Assembly: GCA_945874535.1 (NCBI GenBank) | Contig: CAMCGZ010000008.1 | Span: forward strand, 43,600 to 107,599 | Length of the DNA stretch: 64,000 nucleotides | Direction of reading: 5' to 3' | DNA from: Bdellovibrio sp. ZAP7 | GTDB lineage: Bacteria; Bdellovibrionota; UBA1018; CAIMNF01 | Shown: positions 17,526 to 59,205 of the stretch, one piece after another | Numbering within the stretch: position 1 is the first letter of the stretch | Layout: every line of letters begins with the position of its first letter | Position numbers and translations under genes: made by a program | Notes under the pieces: model-generated | The model's database searches: none | Seen by the model: only the letters and a program-made list of their open reading frames with translations | Told to the model about the DNA's origin: nothing

Positions 17526-18476
17526 TTATCCGACGCTCATCATTCTCATGAACTTCTCTCTCCGGTGCATCAGGTCTTCGCGAGAGAGAGTTTTCAGACG
17601 ACCGATACTGAAGTCCTGGATCGTGAAGCTCGCCATGACGGTGCCGTAAACGACCGAACGGCGGAGCAGCTGATCCCAAGCTTGAGGATCGTTCTTCATC
17701 ATCGTGCGGTTGGCTCCGGCCTCGGCGAGGTAGCCCATGACCGCTCCGGCGAAGCTGTCGCCCGCGCCGGTCGGATCGATGACTTCGTCAACGAGAAAGG
17801 CCGGTGCGAGGAAGGTTCCGGTCGGGGTGAAGAGGGCCGAGCCGTATTCACCGCGCTTGATGATGATGTTCGACGGACCCATGGATTGGATCTTACGAGC
17901 GGCTTTTTCGAGGCTCTTTTCGTCGGACAGCAAGAAGGCTTCTTTTTCGTTGATGCACAGGAGATCCACTTGCTTCAGGGTCTCTTTGAGCTCGGCCGGC
18001 TTTCCGGTGATCCAGAAGTTCATCGAGTCGCAGGCCACGAACTCGTGACCGCGCACCTGGTTCAGGACCTGCAGCTGGAGCACAGGATCGATGTTGGCGA
18101 GGAACACCACCGGGCAGTCCGTGTGGGTTTCCGGAAGTTTCGGATCGAAATGTTCGAAAACATTCAGGGCAGTGGCAAGGGTCTTGGCTTCGTTCAGGTT
18201 GGTGTCGTATTCGCCCACCCAGTGAAAGGTCTTCCCTGCGGCAACTTGAACCCCGGTGACATCCACATTGCGCTCTTTCAGGAAGCCGAGGTGCTCTTTC
18301 GGGAAATCATCGCCGACCACCGCCACAATCTTGATCGGAGTGAACAGTGACGCGGCCAGGGAGAAGTAATTCACGGAGCCTCCGAGGACATGATCCGCTT
18401 TCCCGGCAGGGGTGCGGACGGAGTCGAAGGCCATGGAACCGACAGTCAGGATCGGACGGGTGGGGCGTGTGTGCAT
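17526..18476 (-). CDS. PfkB family carbohydrate/nucleoside kinase
   Basis: ATG 18476 (MHTRPTRPILTVGSMAFDSV) is chosen: it fits the family N-terminus and lies seven bases after a perfect promoter. The PfkB fold is shown by 'HVLGGSVNYFSLAASLFTPIKIVAVVGDDFPKEHLGFL' (substrate side) and 'VIDPTGAGDSFAGAVMGYLA' (ATP site with catalytic Asp). The middle has 'DLLCINEKEAFLLSDEKSLEKAARKIQSMGPSNIIIKRGEYGSAL'. The substrate cannot be told. Sister families include ribokinase, adenosine kinase and 2-keto-3-deoxygluconate kinase. Confidence 0.85.
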   Translation of the reverse strand: MHTRPTRPILTVGSMAFDSVRTPAGKADHVLGGSVNYFSLAASLFTPIKIVAVVGDDFPKEHLGFLKERNVDVTGVQVAAGKTFHWVGEYDTNLNEAKTLATALNVFEHFDPKLPETHTDCPVVFLANIDPVLQLQVLNQVRGHEFVACDSMNFWITGKPAELKETLKQVDLLCINEKEAFLLSDEKSLEKAARKIQSMGPSNIIIKRGEYGSALFTPTGTFLAPAFLVDEVIDPTGAGDSFAGAVMGYLAEAGANRTMMKNDPQAWDQLLRRSVVYGTVMASFTIQDFSIGRLKTLSREDLMHRREKFMRMMSVG

Positions 18477-18483
18477 GGCGGGG

Positions 18484-18512
18484 ATTCTAATAGCGGAACT
18501 CTTTCGGGTCAA
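18484..18512 (-). promoter_or_regulatory. Strong sigma-70 promoter of the PfkB gene, leaderless
   Basis: On the minus strand TTGACC (18507-18512), exactly 17 bases, TAGAAT (18484-18489), then seven bases to the ATG. The mRNA would start at or next to the start codon; there is no Shine-Dalgarno sequence. The promoter lies over the 3' end of the preceding pilin-cluster gene. Confidence 0.75.
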
Positions 18513-18918
18513 TCGAATTGCCCCGGGGCTTCATCGACCCGGTGGCGGCAATGGGGTTCCGGTCCAGAGTCCGGATCCAGGTCTCAAAACCGGCAATTCC
18601 GACGCTGAGCTCGATCCAATCCGGTTTCGGGTCGGGGACCCCCCGAACATGAACCCCGGCCGGAAGATCCGGAATCCCTCCGGGGAACTCGATGATCCGG
18701 GCATCTCGCGAAATGCGCACCCGACCGTCCCCCGGAGAGCTCCGGTTCAAGGGGAGGGGGCGGAACCCGCGGGTGGCCAGAACGGCACGCCAGGCCTCTC
18801 CGGGGAGGAGGTGTTCCTCGTGAAAGCGACGGGCCCCTGCCTCGGAGGATCCTTGATGGGCAAGGGCGATCAATAGAAGACCTGCAAGGAGCCCCAGGAG
18901 GGCCCGGACTTGCCTCAG
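18487..18918 (-). CDS. Small exported protein at the end of the prepilin cluster, CTG start
   Basis: The track ORF starts far upstream, out of context. The CTG at 18918 overlaps the stop of the previous gene as CTGA and opens (M)RQVRALLGLLAGLLLIALAHQGSSEAG, a clear signal peptide or membrane anchor. No ATG, GTG or TTG lies near. The remaining 115 residues include 'RFHEEHLLPGEAWRAVLATRGFRPLPL', 'GRVRISRDARIIEFPGGIPDLPAGVHVRG' and 'DWIELSVGIAGFETWIRTLD'. I do not recognise a family. Position and coupling tie it to the Flp/TadE-like genes. Use of CTG is inferred from the overlap and the signal peptide. Confidence 0.5.
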   Translation of the reverse strand: MRQVRALLGLLAGLLLIALAHQGSSEAGARRFHEEHLLPGEAWRAVLATRGFRPLPLNRSSPGDGRVRISRDARIIEFPGGIPDLPAGVHVRGVPDPKPDWIELSVGIAGFETWIRTLDRNPIAATGSMKPRGNSIDPKEFRY

Positions 18919-19094
18919 TAATGCAGGGTCGATCGCTGGTGGTCCAAGGCGCGATAGAATCCCCGGTAGGTTCGGGCGAAGCGTTTGCCACAAAGAACCA
19001 GGACGAACACGATCAGACCTGCCCATAGTGCCACCTCCAACAGTATCGAACCTCGCTTCCGTTCAAGGGCTCCACCTGACCTTCCATTTCTCAT
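18915..19094 (-). CDS. TadE/F-like minor prepilin
   Basis: ATG 19094 follows GGAGGTCTCCCG, a strong ribosome-binding site within the previous gene's end. The 59-residue product MRNGRSGGALERKRGSILLEVALWAGLIVFVLVLCGKRFARTY has a basic leader, a glycine, and then SILLEV with the conserved glutamate at +5, followed by a hydrophobic helix. That is a class III prepilin signature read by PilD/TadV-type peptidases. The C-terminal part after the helix is only about 20 residues. Its stop TGA overlaps a CTG start for the next gene. Confidence 0.6.
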   Translation of the reverse strand: MRNGRSGGALERKRGSILLEVALWAGLIVFVLVLCGKRFARTYRGFYRALDHQRSTLHY

Positions 19095-19695
19095 CGGGAG
19101 ACCTCCATGCCACCGCGGTCGACTGCTGATTCCGGGAAGCGATCCCGACGCGGTATTCTTTCCGGGCGGGCGGGGCGAGGGTTGGCGCTCCGGCCAATAC
19201 CGCCTCCGCATCGAGCTCCACCAAGGACAAGTCGTGCTCTGGAAAACTGCTCCGCTCCGGTCGCCTGCGGAGGCGGCAACCGATCCCCGTGAGCAGGTTC
19301 CAACGGAGGGCCTCTTTCATCCACTCCAGACGCAGTTTTTCCTGGTTCATGCGCTCAGCGAGCAAGAGGAGCCGGAAGGATTCGAGTGCGGTGGGGCCTG
19401 CAGGGGTCGGGAGCAGGCCCAATGTGATCCTTCGCGCCGACTCAATCCGTTTCCAGGACCTCTCGTGTGCGGTAACCCAGGAGCGAATGCGGAGAACTGC
19501 GATCCCCGTGCAGCGATCGAAATTCACCTGTCGCTCCGTGATTGCCCGGAGGTGCCGGGCGGCCATCCAGAGTCCGGTTCCCGAACTGAGAGCCAGGAGA
19601 AGGAGAACCCCTCCGAGGAGGGAGAACCCCGCCCGGTCCGATCGAGCTGTTCGAGAGGCAGGAGACGGATCCGCTCCTCCAGTCCCGCTCCGCAG
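19063..19695 (-). CDS. Pseudopilin-like protein, start uncertain
   Basis: The useful part begins 'ARSDRAGFSLLGGVLLLLALSSGTGLWMAARHLRAIT', a type IV prepilin-like N-terminus with glycine and phenylalanine at the cleavage site, but Gly instead of Glu at +5. About 170 residues follow, with a helical stretch ('ALESFRLLLLAERMNQEKLRLEWMKEALRWNLLTGIGCRLR'). There is no ATG/GTG/TTG between the TadE-like gene and this region. CTG 19695 is the nearest near-cognate and is used here, which makes a 172-base overlap with the TadE-like ORF. A frameshift joining or separating the two genes is the alternative. Confidence 0.4.
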   Translation of the reverse strand: MRSGTGGADPSPASRTARSDRAGFSLLGGVLLLLALSSGTGLWMAARHLRAITERQVNFDRCTGIAVLRIRSWVTAHERSWKRIESARRITLGLLPTPAGPTALESFRLLLLAERMNQEKLRLEWMKEALRWNLLTGIGCRLRRRPERSSFPEHDLSLVELDAEAVLAGAPTLAPPARKEYRVGIASRNQQSTAVAWRSPDEKWKVRWSP

Positions 19696-19886
19696 GGTTC
19701 CACCCGGATCACAGGGGCGGCGGTGAGCAGGAGCTCGTCCCGGGCAGACCGGAAGGCACGGATTCCGCAGCGAATCCGGGTGAATTCGATCCACCCCATC
19801 CGGATCGCCCCCCCTGCCAAGGGGAGCAGAATGAGCAACAGGGCCCATTGGAACTCGATCAGACTCTGTCCACTCCGGCGATTCAG
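19524..19886 (-). CDS. TadE-like prepilin, CTG start
   Basis: The track ORF has no usable start. CTG 19886 overlaps the flp stop as CTGA, and AGGAGA lies ten bases upstream. The product (M)NRRSGQSLIEFQWALLLILLPLAGGAIRMGWIEFTRIRCGIRAFRSARDELLLT is a canonical TadE N-terminus: glycine, QSLIEF with Glu at +5, then a hydrophobic helix. The last 40 residues (SPSSEGFSFSWLSVREPDSGWPPG...) look non-protein-like and overlap the next gene in another frame. A frameshift or natural early end is therefore possible. It would be a minor pilin of a Flp/Tad pilus. Confidence 0.55.
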   Translation of the reverse strand: MNRRSGQSLIEFQWALLLILLPLAGGAIRMGWIEFTRIRCGIRAFRSARDELLLTAAPVIRVEPCGAGLEERIRLLPLEQLDRTGRGSPSSEGFSFSWLSVREPDSGWPPGTSGQSRSDR

Positions 19887-20059
19887 GGGATGTGGATCTC
19901 CTGGAGTTTTTGGTTGATGGTGTCGAGCTTGGTCTTGATGGTGGATCCCACCATCCGGGATGCGGCGATGGAGCAGACCGCGATCAGCATGACTAAGATG
20001 ATGTACTCGCTCAAGCCTTGGCCGCTCCGGTCGGAGAGTTTCAAAGAGATTCGATTCAT
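19883..20059 (-). CDS. Flp-type pilin
   Basis: ATG 20059 (MNRISLKLSDRSGQGLSEYIILVMLIAVCSIAASRMVGSTIKTKLDTINQKLQEIHIP) gives a 58-residue protein. Its 'SGQGLSEYIILVMLIAV' is the diagnostic Flp motif: processed after Gly, Glu-Tyr at +5/+6, then the hydrophobic pilin helix. Flp pilins form Tad-type adhesive fibres. No Tad ATPase, secretin or TadB/C genes are in the window, so the assembly machine must be elsewhere or the type IV pilus apparatus at 46-64 kb is used. TTGGCCCGGTTTTTGTA upstream resembles a -24/-12 promoter with GT for GC, weakly. Confidence 0.75.
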   Translation of the reverse strand: MNRISLKLSDRSGQGLSEYIILVMLIAVCSIAASRMVGSTIKTKLDTINQKLQEIHIP

Positions 20060-20108: not shown

Positions 20109-20804
20109 ATGCAAAAGAGCGAGAAATTTTTCATTTTCAGCTGGAAGGAATTGTTTGTTCTCGGACTCCTCGTGGTGACCGCTTTGGGGTTCTGCTTCAC
20201 GCTCGGACTGCACTACGGAAAGCAGATCCGAGTGGATGAACAGGTGGTCGAGGCTCCCGCTCCGAAGGTCGAAGGGAGCCATGAGGCGACTCCCCCCCGT
20301 GCTGTACTGGATCAGGGTGCCCAGTATGTGGACCAGGCCACCAAGGAAGCGATCGAGGGTGCCACTGAGAAAGCGGCTGCCGAGTCCGGAATCAAATTGG
20401 ATCATCCGAAACCCGTTGAACTGCCGGCCGAGAAAACCGTTCATCCGCCCCTGGCTCTTCCGACAGCCGTGACCCATCCTCCGGTTGCCGAGGACGATGA
20501 AGAGGAAGAGGAAGAGGAAGTCGAAGAAAAAGCCGCAGAAAAAGAAAAGCCGCCTGCGGAGATTTATTCAGTGCAATTGGGATCCTATCCCAACATGGCG
20601 GCCGCACGGAAGAAGACGGGTGTGTTCACCAAGCGCGGACTGAAGACTGAAGTCCGGACTGCGAAAGTGAACGGGGAGACCCGTTACCGCGTCGTGCTTT
20701 CAGGATTCAAATCCCGCAAAGCCGCCGAGGCCAAGGGTAAAGAACTGGTTTCGAAGCGTAAAATCGAGAGCTTCGTCGTTATTTCTTCCGCTTCTCCTCA
20801 TTGA
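20109..20804 (+). CDS. SPOR domain inner-membrane protein
   Basis: A single N-terminal transmembrane helix (about residues 12-35, 'WKELFVLGLLVVTALGFCFTLGLHYG') precedes a long, charged periplasmic linker with an acidic run (EDDEEEEEEEVEEKAAEKEK, about 135-154). A SPOR domain ends the protein (about 155-231): 'IYSVQLGSYPNMAAARKKTGVFTKRGLKTEVRTAKVNGETRYRVVLSGFKSRKAAEAKGKEL'. SPOR domains bind denuded glycan strands at division sites, so a septal role like FtsN or DedD is likely. It diverges from flp and overlaps the convergent cyclic-nucleotide-binding gene by 26 bases. Confidence 0.88.
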   Translation: MQKSEKFFIFSWKELFVLGLLVVTALGFCFTLGLHYGKQIRVDEQVVEAPAPKVEGSHEATPPRAVLDQGAQYVDQATKEAIEGATEKAAAESGIKLDHPKPVELPAEKTVHPPLALPTAVTHPPVAEDDEEEEEEEVEEKAAEKEKPPAEIYSVQLGSYPNMAAARKKTGVFTKRGLKTEVRTAKVNGETRYRVVLSGFKSRKAAEAKGKELVSKRKIESFVVISSASPH

Positions 20805-21774
20805 GGCGTTCGATTTCGGTCAGAACCCAGAACACCCGGTAAAGGAATAGCAGATTGCTTCCCTCGTAATCGAGCAGAACTTCGCTCGCTGAAACCAGGG
20901 TGATGTTCTTGATGAAACCCTGGTCCTGCAGTTCCTGGATTTGACCCACAGGAACTCCGGCCTGCTGAATCGCCGGGCCGATGTTCAGGCGCTCGATCGA
21001 GTCCGCCAGCGGTTTGGCCTGAGTCCGGTTCTGGACCATGAGTCCGAGGATCTTGAAGCCGGACGGGGACAGGGTCTGCCGTTTCTCGTGGGGGGTCAGA
21101 TTCTGTTCATTTAGGTATTGTATGAATTGGTCGAGGAAACGGATATCCGTCAGCATGAGGTCGTCTTTCAGGATCTTGACCGTCTTCAGGAGCTCGATCA
21201 GGCTCAACACCTTGGCTGAGGGGACTTGGAGGATCTGGGTGGCGAAGCGTTCGAGCATGGCCGAAGTGAACTCGATCCCGTCCGGTTTCTCGTTCTTTCC
21301 GTAACGGGAGGCTACCGTCAGCAGAGCGGTGGAAAACTTCAGCAACTCGGGTGTGGTGACAAAACAGTATTCCTTAGAGCGGTTCCCGTGTTTGTCGACT
21401 TCGTATTCGGTCGAGAGGCTTTCGAGCATCCGGACCTTGTTGTTCGCAGCCCGGAGGCGCGAACTGATGGTCTTGATCAGGGTCACAAGCCACTCCGGAA
21501 TTTTCGAAAGGGCGTCGTCAAGCGACCCCTTCGAGATCTCGATCAGGTCGGTCGGCAGCAAAGCTTCGGCTGAGGCCGAGCGGGGTTGTCCGTCGAAAAA
21601 AGCAAGTTCTCCGAGTACCGAACCTGCGCGCACGGTATCGATTTCGATCTTGCCCTCACCCTTGCGGCGAAAGAGCCGGATCGCCCCTTTTTTGACAAAA
21701 TAGAGGGCATTGGAGGGATCCCCCTCTTCGAACAGAATGTCTTTTTGCTTCAGATTGACTTCTTTGGCACTCAT
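20779..21774 (-). CDS. Cyclic-nucleotide-binding effector protein
   Basis: Residues about 10-115 form a Crp-type cyclic-nucleotide-binding domain. The phosphate-binding cassette is 'VLGELAFFDGQPRSASAEAL', whose PRSA arginine contacts the cyclic phosphate. The remaining 210 residues are helical and lack an obvious helix-turn-helix, so this is probably not a Crp transcription factor. The sequence 'FLDQFIQYLNEQNLTPHEKRQTLSP' is unfamiliar. It lies one base behind the CHASE2 adenylate cyclase gene, which argues that it is the cAMP receiver for that enzyme. That pairing is inference from gene order. Confidence 0.75.
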   Translation of the reverse strand: MSAKEVNLKQKDILFEEGDPSNALYFVKKGAIRLFRRKGEGKIEIDTVRAGSVLGELAFFDGQPRSASAEALLPTDLIEISKGSLDDALSKIPEWLVTLIKTISSRLRAANNKVRMLESLSTEYEVDKHGNRSKEYCFVTTPELLKFSTALLTVASRYGKNEKPDGIEFTSAMLERFATQILQVPSAKVLSLIELLKTVKILKDDLMLTDIRFLDQFIQYLNEQNLTPHEKRQTLSPSGFKILGLMVQNRTQAKPLADSIERLNIGPAIQQAGVPVGQIQELQDQGFIKNITLVSASEVLLDYEGSNLLFLYRVFWVLTEIERLNEEKRKK

Positions 21775-46567: not shown

Positions 46568-48280
46568 ATGTCCAGGAAACTCGTCGAGCTCCTCTACAAG
46601 GAAAAGCTCCTCACACAATCCCAGTACCAGGATGCCGAGGCCATCTTCAAAAGCAACGGAGATGCCATCCGTCAGTTCATTGAGAAAAAAGTCCTCTCCG
46701 AGCAGAAGTTGCTCCTTTTCCTCAATCAGAAATTCTCACTCCAGAGTATCAACCTGGCCAAGTTCGAGGTGAAACCGGAAGTGGTGGTGACCATCAGTGC
46801 CGATCTTGCGCGGAAGGCTCAAGCGATTCCGATTCAGATGAGTCGGGGAATCCTTGTGGTTGCCATTCCGGATCCGACCCAGATCGCTTTTTTGGATGAC
46901 ATCCGGTTCGCCACCAAAATGAATGTGGAGGCGGTGTTGACCACATTCACCGCTTTCGATGCAGCCTTCCTGAAGTATTATTCGGGGACCCAGAACCTGG
47001 GTCGGGCTCTCGAGCAATTCAAGAAAGACTCCCAGACCCCCAAGGGAGGCAAGGAAGAGCAGATCCAGCAGATCGAGCAATTCCAGGTTCATGATGTGAA
47101 CAATGCCGCCGGCGATGACGCTCCGGTGATTTCAGTGGTGAACAGTGTGCTCACAGAAGCCATTCGCCGCGGGGCTTCGGATATCCATGTCGAACCTTAC
47201 GAGCGCGATTTCCGTGTCCGGATCCGGGTAGACGGGACACTCATCGATGTCACGCATATCCCTATGGAGATGAAGCGTGCGGTGGTCGCGCGGTTCAAGA
47301 TCATGGGGCGGATGGACATCGCCGAATCGAGAGTGCCTCAGGACGGTCGGATCAAGATCAAACTTGGAAACAAGGAAGTCGACTTCCGGGTGAACACGCT
47401 CCCAACCCTTTTCGGGGAGAAGGTCGTTCTCCGTATCCTTTCCAAAGGGAATCTCCAACTGGACCTCAGAACACTCGGATTCGAGGACCGTCAATTGGAG
47501 ATCTTCCGGAATGGGATCGCCCAACCGAACGGAATGGTCCTGGTAACGGGACCCACCGGTAGCGGGAAGACCACCACGCTCTATTCGGCTCTTATGGAGC
47601 TCAACCAGGTTTCCGACAATCTTTCCACTGTCGAAGACCCTGTGGAATACAATCTCGAAGGGATCAACCAGGTCCAGGTGAACAAAGATGTCGGCTTGAC
47701 CTTCGCGGCAGTCTTGAGAGCACTGCTTCGTCAGGATCCGGATACGGTCCTGGTGGGGGAGATCCGGGACTTTGAAACGGGTGAAGTCGCGGTCCAGGCG
47801 GCTCTGACCGGGCACTTGGTGCTCTCTACGCTTCACACCAATGACACGGTTTCCACCATCACCCGGATGGTGAACATGGGAATTGAGCCGTTCCTTGTCA
47901 CGGCTTCCGTCAATACCATTGTGGCCCAGCGATTGCTCCGGACGCTCTGTCAGCATTGCAAGCAGCCGACCAAGATACCAGCCGACAAGATGGAGTCTCT
48001 GGGTATCAACAAGTTCGCCGCCAATGCAAAATTCTACGGTCCCAAGGGCTGTAAGGAGTGCAACAATACCGGCTATAAAGGTCGGGTCGCTATTTACGAG
48101 GTTCTGGAATACTTCTCCGAGTTGAAGGAAATGACTCTCGCCGGGCGTACTGCGATTGAAATCAAGAGGACTGCGGTCGAGCAGTACGGTCTCCAGACTC
48201 TCAGGGTTTCGGCGCTCAAAAAGGCCGTCGAGGGTAGAACATCGGTCGATGAGGCGGTCTCCATGACCGCGGAACAGTGA
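46568..48280 (+). CDS. pilB: Type IV pilus assembly ATPase PilB
   Basis: PilB is the cytosolic motor that extends type IV pili. An N-terminal MshE-type domain (about residues 1-150) is followed by the secretion ATPase core. The core has 'DIHVEPYERDFRVRIRVDGTLI', Walker A GPTGSGKTTTLYSAL (about 327), Asp box 'NLSTVEDPVEYNLEGINQVQVN', Walker B 'QDPDTVLVGEIRDFETGEVAVQAALTGHLVLSTLHTNDT' and the zinc-binding tetracysteine 'CQHC...CKECNNTGYKGRVAIYE'. Its 570 residues are typical. It is the first gene of the pilus cluster, followed by pilT after 24 bases. Confidence 0.96.
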   Translation: MSRKLVELLYKEKLLTQSQYQDAEAIFKSNGDAIRQFIEKKVLSEQKLLLFLNQKFSLQSINLAKFEVKPEVVVTISADLARKAQAIPIQMSRGILVVAIPDPTQIAFLDDIRFATKMNVEAVLTTFTAFDAAFLKYYSGTQNLGRALEQFKKDSQTPKGGKEEQIQQIEQFQVHDVNNAAGDDAPVISVVNSVLTEAIRRGASDIHVEPYERDFRVRIRVDGTLIDVTHIPMEMKRAVVARFKIMGRMDIAESRVPQDGRIKIKLGNKEVDFRVNTLPTLFGEKVVLRILSKGNLQLDLRTLGFEDRQLEIFRNGIAQPNGMVLVTGPTGSGKTTTLYSALMELNQVSDNLSTVEDPVEYNLEGINQVQVNKDVGLTFAAVLRALLRQDPDTVLVGEIRDFETGEVAVQAALTGHLVLSTLHTNDTVSTITRMVNMGIEPFLVTASVNTIVAQRLLRTLCQHCKQPTKIPADKMESLGINKFAANAKFYGPKGCKECNNTGYKGRVAIYEVLEYFSELKEMTLAGRTAIEIKRTAVEQYGLQTLRVSALKKAVEGRTSVDEAVSMTAEQ

Positions 48281-48304: not shown

Positions 48305-49366
48305 ATGGGAAAGCTGACACTCACAGCATTGCTCCGGGCGATGGTGGATCAGGATGCATCCGACTTGCACATCACTTGCAATACCCCCCCCCAGTTCCGG
48401 ATTCATGGCAAACTCATGAAAGCCAAGACCGACCCGCTCACACCCGAATCGATCAAAGAGTTGGTCTATGAAATCCTGACGGAGCAGCAGAAGAAAACCT
48501 TCGAAACCTCGAACGAACTCGACTTTTCTTTTGGTGTGAAGGATGTCGCCCGTTTCCGGGGAAACCTGTTTTTCCAGCGAGGCTCCATGGGTGCGGTGTT
48601 CCGGAAAATCCCGGTGAACATCCCCGAGTTCGATAAGCTGAGCCTCCCCGAAGCCATCCGTAAGATCGTCAAGCAACCGAATGGTTTGTTCCTGGTCACC
48701 GGGCCGACCGGTTCGGGTAAGTCCACCTCACTTGCAGCGATCATCGACCTTTTGAATCGTGAAGACAACGGGCACATCCTCACTTTCGAGGATCCGATCG
48801 AATTTGTTCATCAACATAAGAACTGTATTGTGAACCAGCGGGAAATCGGTGCGGACTCGCACACGTTTCATGATGCGCTCAAACATGCCCTCCGGCAGGA
48901 TCCGGATTTCATCCTGGTGGGGGAATTGCGGGATCTCGAAACGATCGAAATGGCCCTGACTGCGGCCGAAACCGGCCATATGGTCTTCGGAACCATGCAT
49001 ACGAACAGCGCGGTTCAAACCATTGCCCGGGTGGTGAACGTCTTTCCTCCGCACCAGCAACCCCAAATTCGACAATTACTCGCGGCAACACTCATCGGGG
49101 TCCTGACCCAACAGCTGGTGCCGAATTCGGGAAGATCCGGCCGATCGGCCGCATTCGAGCTCCTGGCTCCCAATACTGCGATCAAGAACCTCATCCGGGA
49201 AGACAAGACGCACCAGATTTACGGTGCGATGCAAGCGGGACAGGCCGGAACCGGGATGCAAACCATGAATCAATCGCTGGCCGAGCTGGTCCGTAAAGGG
49301 AACCTGACCAAGGCCGATGCGATGGCTTACAGTCTCGCACCCGAAGAGCTCGGGAAGATGGTCTGA
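48305..49366 (+). CDS. pilT: Type IV pilus retraction ATPase PilT
   Basis: PilT powers pilus retraction and twitching. The 353 residues begin with the PilT-type PAS-like domain ('LTLTALLRAMVDQDASDLHITCNTPPQFRIHGKLM'). The ATPase core has Walker A GPTGSGKSTSLAAI (about residue 132), 'HILTFEDPIEFVHQHKNCIVNQREIG', Walker B 'ALRQDPDFILVGELRDLETIEMALTAAETGHMVFGTMHTNSA' and a final 'GMQTMNQSLAELVRKGNLTKADAMAYS'. The tetracysteine motif of PilB is absent, as expected. pilC follows 12 bases later. Confidence 0.96.
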   Translation: MGKLTLTALLRAMVDQDASDLHITCNTPPQFRIHGKLMKAKTDPLTPESIKELVYEILTEQQKKTFETSNELDFSFGVKDVARFRGNLFFQRGSMGAVFRKIPVNIPEFDKLSLPEAIRKIVKQPNGLFLVTGPTGSGKSTSLAAIIDLLNREDNGHILTFEDPIEFVHQHKNCIVNQREIGADSHTFHDALKHALRQDPDFILVGELRDLETIEMALTAAETGHMVFGTMHTNSAVQTIARVVNVFPPHQQPQIRQLLAATLIGVLTQQLVPNSGRSGRSAAFELLAPNTAIKNLIREDKTHQIYGAMQAGQAGTGMQTMNQSLAELVRKGNLTKADAMAYSLAPEELGKMV

Positions 49367-58411: not shown

Positions 58412-59205
58412 TGCTGATCGAATCGATCGGAGTGATTCTACTTGGACTGGTATTGGGAAGTTTTTTGAATGTGGTGATTCATCGCTTACCCCTGGACGAA
58501 TCGATCCTTTATCCGGGGAGTCGGTGCCCGGCCTGTCGCAAATCCATCAGGTGGTTTCACAATGTGCCCGTAATCGGGTACTTGGTACTCCGGGGGAAGT
58601 GTGTGGCCTGTGGGGCCAAAATCTCCGCTCGTTATCCATTTGTGGAGCTCCTGACCGCCTTCTTGTTTTGGGGAGCGTATTTGGGTCTGCCAGGAGACGG
58701 GATCCAGGCTGTGAATCAATTCAGGATCTGGATTTTTATCCTGATTGGAATCGCGGTTACCTTTATCGATCTTGATCACAGGATCATCCCGCACACGCTC
58801 AGCTTTGGCGGGTGGGCGGTGGGGCTACTGACCTGTATGGCGGACTACCGGCACGGGGCTTGGGAGTTGGTGGGGGCTTCGGTCGCTGGATTCGGGTTTT
58901 TCTTTTTGTTCGGTCTTCTGTATGAAAAAGTCACTGGTCGCGTCGGCTTGGGCGGGGGGGATGTGAACTTCATGGGGACGATCGGAGCTTTTCTCGGGTT
59001 CGGGGGCATTTGGTCTTCGATTCTAATTAGTTCAATTTCGGGGAGCGTGGTGGGGCTCCTCATGGCCACCTGGTCCAAGCGGCGTGGGGAGGTCGACGGG
59101 GGACAGGACGGGGTGCTCCGGACCCAGATTCCTTATGGGCCTTTCCTCGTCTTCGGGGCTCTGGTAGAACTGTTTTTCGGGGTGTCAGCATGGATCGGCC
59201 TTTAG
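58411..59205 (+). CDS. pilD: Prepilin leader peptidase / N-methyltransferase PilD
   Basis: ATG 58411 shares its first base with the pilI stop (TGATG); a GTG three bases earlier is an alternative. The 264-residue enzyme has the N-terminal methyltransferase part with two CxxC pairs (CPACRKS, CVACGAK) and 'GSFLNVVIHRLP'. The aspartic protease part has 'VTFIDLDHRIIPHTLSFGG' and the GxGD motif 'GLGGGDVNFMGTIGAFLGF'. Eight membrane segments are evident. It cuts PilA, and as the only such peptidase in the window it may also process the Flp/TadE-like prepilins. Confidence 0.94.
   Translation: MLIESIGVILLGLVLGSFLNVVIHRLPLDESILYPGSRCPACRKSIRWFHNVPVIGYLVLRGKCVACGAKISARYPFVELLTAFLFWGAYLGLPGDGIQAVNQFRIWIFILIGIAVTFIDLDHRIIPHTLSFGGWAVGLLTCMADYRHGAWELVGASVAGFGFFFLFGLLYEKVTGRVGLGGGDVNFMGTIGAFLGFGGIWSSILISSISGSVVGLLMATWSKRRGEVDGGQDGVLRTQIPYGPFLVFGALVELFFGVSAWIGL

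Follow-up and report, generated by a model that had tools for sequence, protein, structure and literature searches.

The minus strand of the window, the 64,000-nt stretch of DNA analysed here and part of contig C8 of a 2.4-Mb genome in 39 contigs, carries five overlapping genes between positions 20059 and 18487, in the order flp, tadE, g3, g4 and g5, followed by a gene for a pfkB-family kinase (Table 1). Aligned with its counterparts in two related species (L042 and L032), the cluster showed 73-79% identity across 1570 nt with zero net indels. Third-codon-position substitutions among the three species tracked flp to 19883, tadE from 19880 to ~19640, g3 to 19063, and then g4 and g5, and switches in substitution phase coincided with the changes of frame. 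Because selection passes from frame to frame in this three-species comparison, and because the block is conserved upstream of pfkB, the substitution pattern indicates that all five minus-strand genes are real coding frames. The original prediction of five overlapping frames at 18487-20059 was thus borne out: their stop positions are present in the sequence, their coding nature is supported by the third-position substitutions, and the comparison of homologous loci that it had proposed found all five conserved among relatives. Both CTGA strings to which it had drawn attention also exist (19886-19883 and 18918-18915). Its remark that the region held only long out-of-context open reading frames needs correcting, as the frame at 18487-19026 is the real last gene and that at 19063-19848 is close to the real third gene.

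Table 1. Positions in the window of the five cluster genes, their signals and associated genes
Feature	Position	Strand	Description
flp, Flp-type pilin	19883..20059	-	58 aa, ATG start, leader ...DRSG^QGLSEY
tadE-like minor prepilin	19524..19886	-	120 aa, CTG 19886 start (well supported), leader LNRRSG^QSLIEF
g3, pseudopilin-like	19063..19770	-	most likely extent; internal prepilin motif G^FSLLGG at 19629
g4, short type IV prepilin-like	18915..19094	-	59 aa, ATG start, leader RKRG^SILLEVALW
g5, bitopic membrane protein	18487..19026	-	179 aa, ATG 19026 start, C-terminal motif (I/V)DPKE(I/F)RY
putative tadE ribosome-binding site AGGAG	19898..19902	-	GGAG kept in L042 and L032
g5 ribosome-binding site GGAGG	19034..19038	-	
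pfkB-family kinase	17526..18476	-	directly downstream of cluster, syntenic anchor in order
A24 prepilin peptidase domain	58729..59058	+	same window (G000:C8:102328-102657)

The identities proposed for the first three products, an Flp pilin, a TadE-like protein and a pseudopilin-like protein, were supported by family matches of Flp and of a TadE homologue and by the prepilin leaders. Flp matched PF04964 weakly (E 0.0014; 18.8 bits, below the curated cut-off of 32.2) and combines a G-xxxx-EY class III leader with a hydrophobic stretch, DRSGQGLSEYIILVML. The window's own TadE-like protein gave no match to PF07811 (TadE-like), the syntenic homologue L045 scored 23.7 bits against a cut-off of 22.9, and L060 matched weakly; the passing score of L045, together with the GQxxxEF leader of the protein, supports its identity. 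In g3 and g4, a prepilin leader of the form G^[F/S] precedes a hydrophobic helix, and GFSLLGG and GSILLEVALW are conserved; neither protein matched a Pfam or NCBIfam family. The predicted structure of g3 (pLDDT 88.8) contains two helices, of which the N-terminal one is long, and a small sheet; a structure search returned no PDB fold match for it.

The reading frame of g3 extends far back into tadE. No ATG, GTG, TTG or CTG lies within 20 codons upstream of its GFSLLGG motif (19629), and the same holds in most congeners; the original prediction had overlooked that g3, too, is without a start codon near its leader. In all 12 genomes the g3 frame is open from the GF of the motif back 47-57 codons into tadE, with 0 stops against 31 expected (a total from synonymous shuffles of tadE; the 12 genomes are related, so the joint probability is inexact), and the third frame over the same stretch of tadE contains 30 stops in the 12 genomes. 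In every genome the open stretch reaches back to the NTG that arises at the first conserved Cys codon of tadE (xxN TGC); this NTG is ATG in nine of the 12, GTG in one and CTG in two (the window and L034). Although the Cys codon dictates where this NTG lies, it does not dictate the ribosome-binding sites that precede it in L033, L036, L038 and L040 and, at long spacing, in L035. In the window clade no good ribosome-binding site was found at the g3 NTG. A stop stands directly ahead of the NTG in L033 and L037, and the 33 codons upstream of it hold 5 stops where 12 would be expected. Because the frame runs stop-free into tadE in 12 of 12 genomes, a g3 start far inside tadE, with an overlap of ~250 nt, is strongly supported at the level of sequence. 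In the window the start is most likely CTG 19770, which gives a 247-nt overlap with tadE; ATG 19848 (325 nt) could be used instead. Elsewhere in the order, g3 begins close to the tadE stop with an ATG of its own; initiation deep within tadE thus seems confined to this family (g1, and g2 by way of L043).

Initiation at the prepilin motif itself with a non-standard codon was rejected, as the open stretch upstream would then be needless; an ATG at -4 occurs there in L035 and L041 only. The -1 frame that g3 always occupies relative to tadE, always free of stops, would also suit a TadE-g3 fusion made by programmed -1 ribosomal frameshifting within tadE rather than by internal initiation, and A_AAA_AAG, the type of slippery heptamer behind -1 frameshifting in dnaX, is found in the tadE frame of L033 (L033:4784-4790) and L034. 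However, no slippery heptamer is common to the genomes, most of the twelve have none in the interval, g3 is a separate gene with its own ATG in other families, and it bears a prepilin motif of its own, all of which makes frameshifting unlikely.

The start of tadE lies within a 4-nt overlap with flp, and no ATG, GTG or TTG was found near its N-terminus in the window. At the flp stop, the window, L042 and L032, the three closest species and each a separate MAG, read CCC TGA, which gives CTGA, and the congeners L034, L035 and L041 read CCA TGA, which gives ATGA at the homologous position; in the remaining congeners tadE starts with ATG, GTG or TTG. The start codon takes its first base from the third, silent position of the final Pro codon of Flp, so that one silent change swaps CTG and ATG. 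The leaders that follow from CTG and from ATG align, LNRRSGQSLIEF with MNRKGQILIEH, and AGGAG or GGAG lies ~11 nt before the CTG in the window, L042 and L032. Initiation of tadE at CTG 19886 is therefore well supported by comparison among genomes, as the original prediction had it, with ATG in relatives and the CTG kept in three MAGs. The geometry is that of the familiar ATGA-type stop-start overlaps, with CTG in place of ATG in the window clade. Because roughly one in two third positions of flp is identical in these three species, the CTG need not be adaptive, and its conservation may reflect drift rather than selection.

Farther upstream, in flp, the window clade shares just one other NTG in the tadE frame, at codon 29 (TTG in L042, CTG in the other two species). 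A tadE start there is improbable: the frame is indeed open from this codon in all three genomes, but this is to be expected by chance (P about 0.5), the leader matches that of ATG-started relatives residue for residue (MNRKGQ vs LNRRSGQ), and the AGGAG or GGAG is placed for the CTG at the stop codon. That an assembly or sequencing error conceals ordinary ATG starts was rejected as barely conceivable: every genome involved is a MAG, but three separately assembled species agree in the CTGA, the 4-nt overlap geometry and the open frames, their alignment over 1570 nt has no net indel, and three congeners show ATGA at the homologous position.

The last gene, g5, had been predicted to start at CTG 18918, to have no ATG near its N-terminus and to encode a small exported protein with a signal peptide, and none of this held. 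An in-frame ATG at 19026, 36 codons upstream of the CTG and inside g4, lies shortly behind a GGAGG and recurs at this position in all 12 congeners as well as in other families. This ATG overlaps a conserved Trp codon of g4, and the codon before the Trp ends in A in all 12 congeners (CTA, TTA, ATA or GTA), a base kept against codon usage (P about 5e-14, the product of codon-usage probabilities over the 12). Furthermore, the N-terminal residues of g5, including a (D/S/N)P-x-x-L(K/R) motif, are conserved across CTG 18918 in most congeners; the CTGA at 18918 is itself not conserved among congeners, and no ribosome-binding site was found ahead of it. These comparisons indicate that g5 starts at ATG 19026, and its product is a bitopic membrane protein whose N-terminal ~35 residues are cytoplasmic. 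Its predicted structure (pLDDT 80.6) comprises a membrane helix (about 34-71) and a small alpha/beta domain, with no match in Pfam, NCBIfam or, by structure search, the PDB. Use of both CTG codons as starts, with g5 beginning at 18918, has in its favour the CTGA string and the signal-peptide-like look of LRQVRALLGLLAGLLLIALAHQ, and can be dismissed with near certainty in view of the conserved ATG behind GGAGG, the A kept against codon usage and the conserved residues that precede the CTG. The expectation that gene callers would miss or mis-start both CTG genes consequently applies to tadE and not to g5, whose ATG 19026 they would find.

The remaining starts are nested as well. The ATG of g4, kept in all congeners and preceded by a GGAGG ribosome-binding site, sits 32 nt inside g3, and the ATG of g5 lies 112 nt inside g4; the congeners share this g4/g5 overlap (109-112 nt), and a g5 start within g4 is seen in other families, too. 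If g3 starts at CTG 19770, ~395 of the 1573 nt are double-read, and about a quarter of the cluster DNA is probably read in two frames. Clear selection in the tadE/g3 and g4/g5 overlaps was seen in one frame only: the tadE tail past ~19640 is nearly free, with no clear selection in the tadE frame, and the g5 leader within g4 is likewise nearly free of selection. On the other side of flp, a SPOR-domain gene (20109-20804, plus strand) and a Crp-like gene (20779-21774, minus strand) overlap tail to tail by 26 nt (20779-20804).

Among the relatives, which are MAGs named Bdellovibrionales or Oligoflexia, flp was found in 55 of 58. The complete flp-tadE-g3-g4-g5-pfkB block occurs in congeners and in other families of this uncultured Bdellovibrionota order. 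Family f3 (L203, L204 and L208) keeps flp before pfkB and has a different TadE-like frame of ~280-320 aa, with no recognisable g3-g5. A second orphan Flp-like pilin lies just after the flagellar flh/fli cluster (L099:14226-14381; G000:C6:76225-76380).

As the original prediction had stated, Tad assembly genes are absent from beside the cluster and from the whole 64-kb window; a search of the genome located a TadA ATPase, TadB/C and an RcpA secretin in an operon on contig C5 and a module on contig C3. The C5 locus is a canonical Tad operon with two Flp-like frames, TadE/F-type proteins, RcpC, a secretin, a TadZ-TadA fusion, a T2SSF protein and an RHS protein. The C3 locus (L160:5349-8905, G000:C3), a pilin-less Tad-like module, comprises a secretin, a CpaF ATPase and, on the opposite strand, a 338-aa T2SSF-like protein. 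Most of the order has kept this module. Of the 58 relatives, 47 have the C3-type T2SSF protein, which is absent from family f3 and the class-level outgroups. Because it is missing in f3, which is also without g3-g5, this co-distribution links the C3 module to the pilin set, on few independent events. The search for a second prepilin peptidase, also proposed originally, yielded a single A24 enzyme in the genome, the one encoded in the window at about 58.7 kb; Bdellovibrio has no TadV, according to Avidan et al. 2017 (PMC5430801). The window also encodes PilB- and PilT-type ATPases of type IVa pili (47111-48256 and 48320-49291), and a 695-aa protein judged TadG-like from its N-terminus only is encoded away from the Tad loci (L159:958-3045; G000:C7:6957-9044).

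In Bdellovibrio bacteriovorus, the Tad/Flp operon bd0109-bd0119 combines Flp pilins with TadA, TadB, RcpA and RcpC (PMC5430801), a layout that resembles C5, including the RHS protein. The window cluster, in contrast, has no assembly genes, stands before pfkB and includes g3-g4-g5, which match no family. B. bacteriovorus also has two Flp genes outside the Tad operon, flp3 and flp4, of which flp3 is silent and the unannotated flp4 is required for predation (PMC5430801). The neighbours of flp4, bd2719, an RHS element (PMC3818213), and bd2720, differ from those of the window flp. Orthology of the two was dropped as an explanation, since Bdellovibrio-like genomes have rlmN, not flp, before pfkB and flp4 stands beside an RHS gene. 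The g3-g4 set also recalls the GspI-J-K minor pseudopilins of type II secretion, which are small overlapping prepilin genes. Like GspK, g3 has no Glu at +5 and is the largest of its set; it gave no sequence or fold match, and the host genome has a separate gsp cluster on C6.

Altogether, we read the locus, with a probability of roughly 0.7, as an orphan Tad-type pilin operon (flp, tadE, g3-g4-g5) with nested starts: a 4-nt CTGA junction for tadE, a start ~250 nt inside tadE for g3, and ATG codons for g4 and g5 that lie 32 nt inside g3 and 112 nt inside g4, respectively. It is an unusual operon architecture in a known kind of system. Translation would be coupled, ribosomes already on the mRNA beginning the next gene locally, and tadE could tolerate its weak CTG start because of this coupling; in E. 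coli, CUG initiation complexes are less stable (PMC11497404). The one prepilin peptidase (PilD), whose gene also lies in the window, would process Flp, TadE, g3 and g4, and its cleavage of g3 would take off a long basic leader. Assembly of the subunits into a pilus or pseudopilus would depend on proteins from another locus, for which the pilin-less CpaF/TadB-C/secretin module of contig C3 is the most likely candidate. To a more ambitious version we give somewhat less than even odds: that in this one family the start of the pseudopilin gene shifted upstream by ~250 nt into tadE, leaving two thirds of tadE double-read, that a basic leader of 47-57 residues without conserved sequence is removed by the prepilin peptidase, and that the operon supplies the filament, and the separate pilin-less locus the machine, of a split Tad system.

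The locus offers a natural test of the limits of gene nesting in bacteria, in which selection reveals the load-bearing frame wherever two genes share DNA, and one silent change in flp converts the ATG of the next gene to CTG. Annotation would miss or mis-start tadE and g3 across the whole lineage. Should the C3 module and the pilin set prove to be parts of one system, the lineage has a second, split Tad system, a point of interest given that predation by Bdellovibrio requires Flp pilins (PMC5430801); by analogy with those flp genes, the window cluster may have a role in predation as well.
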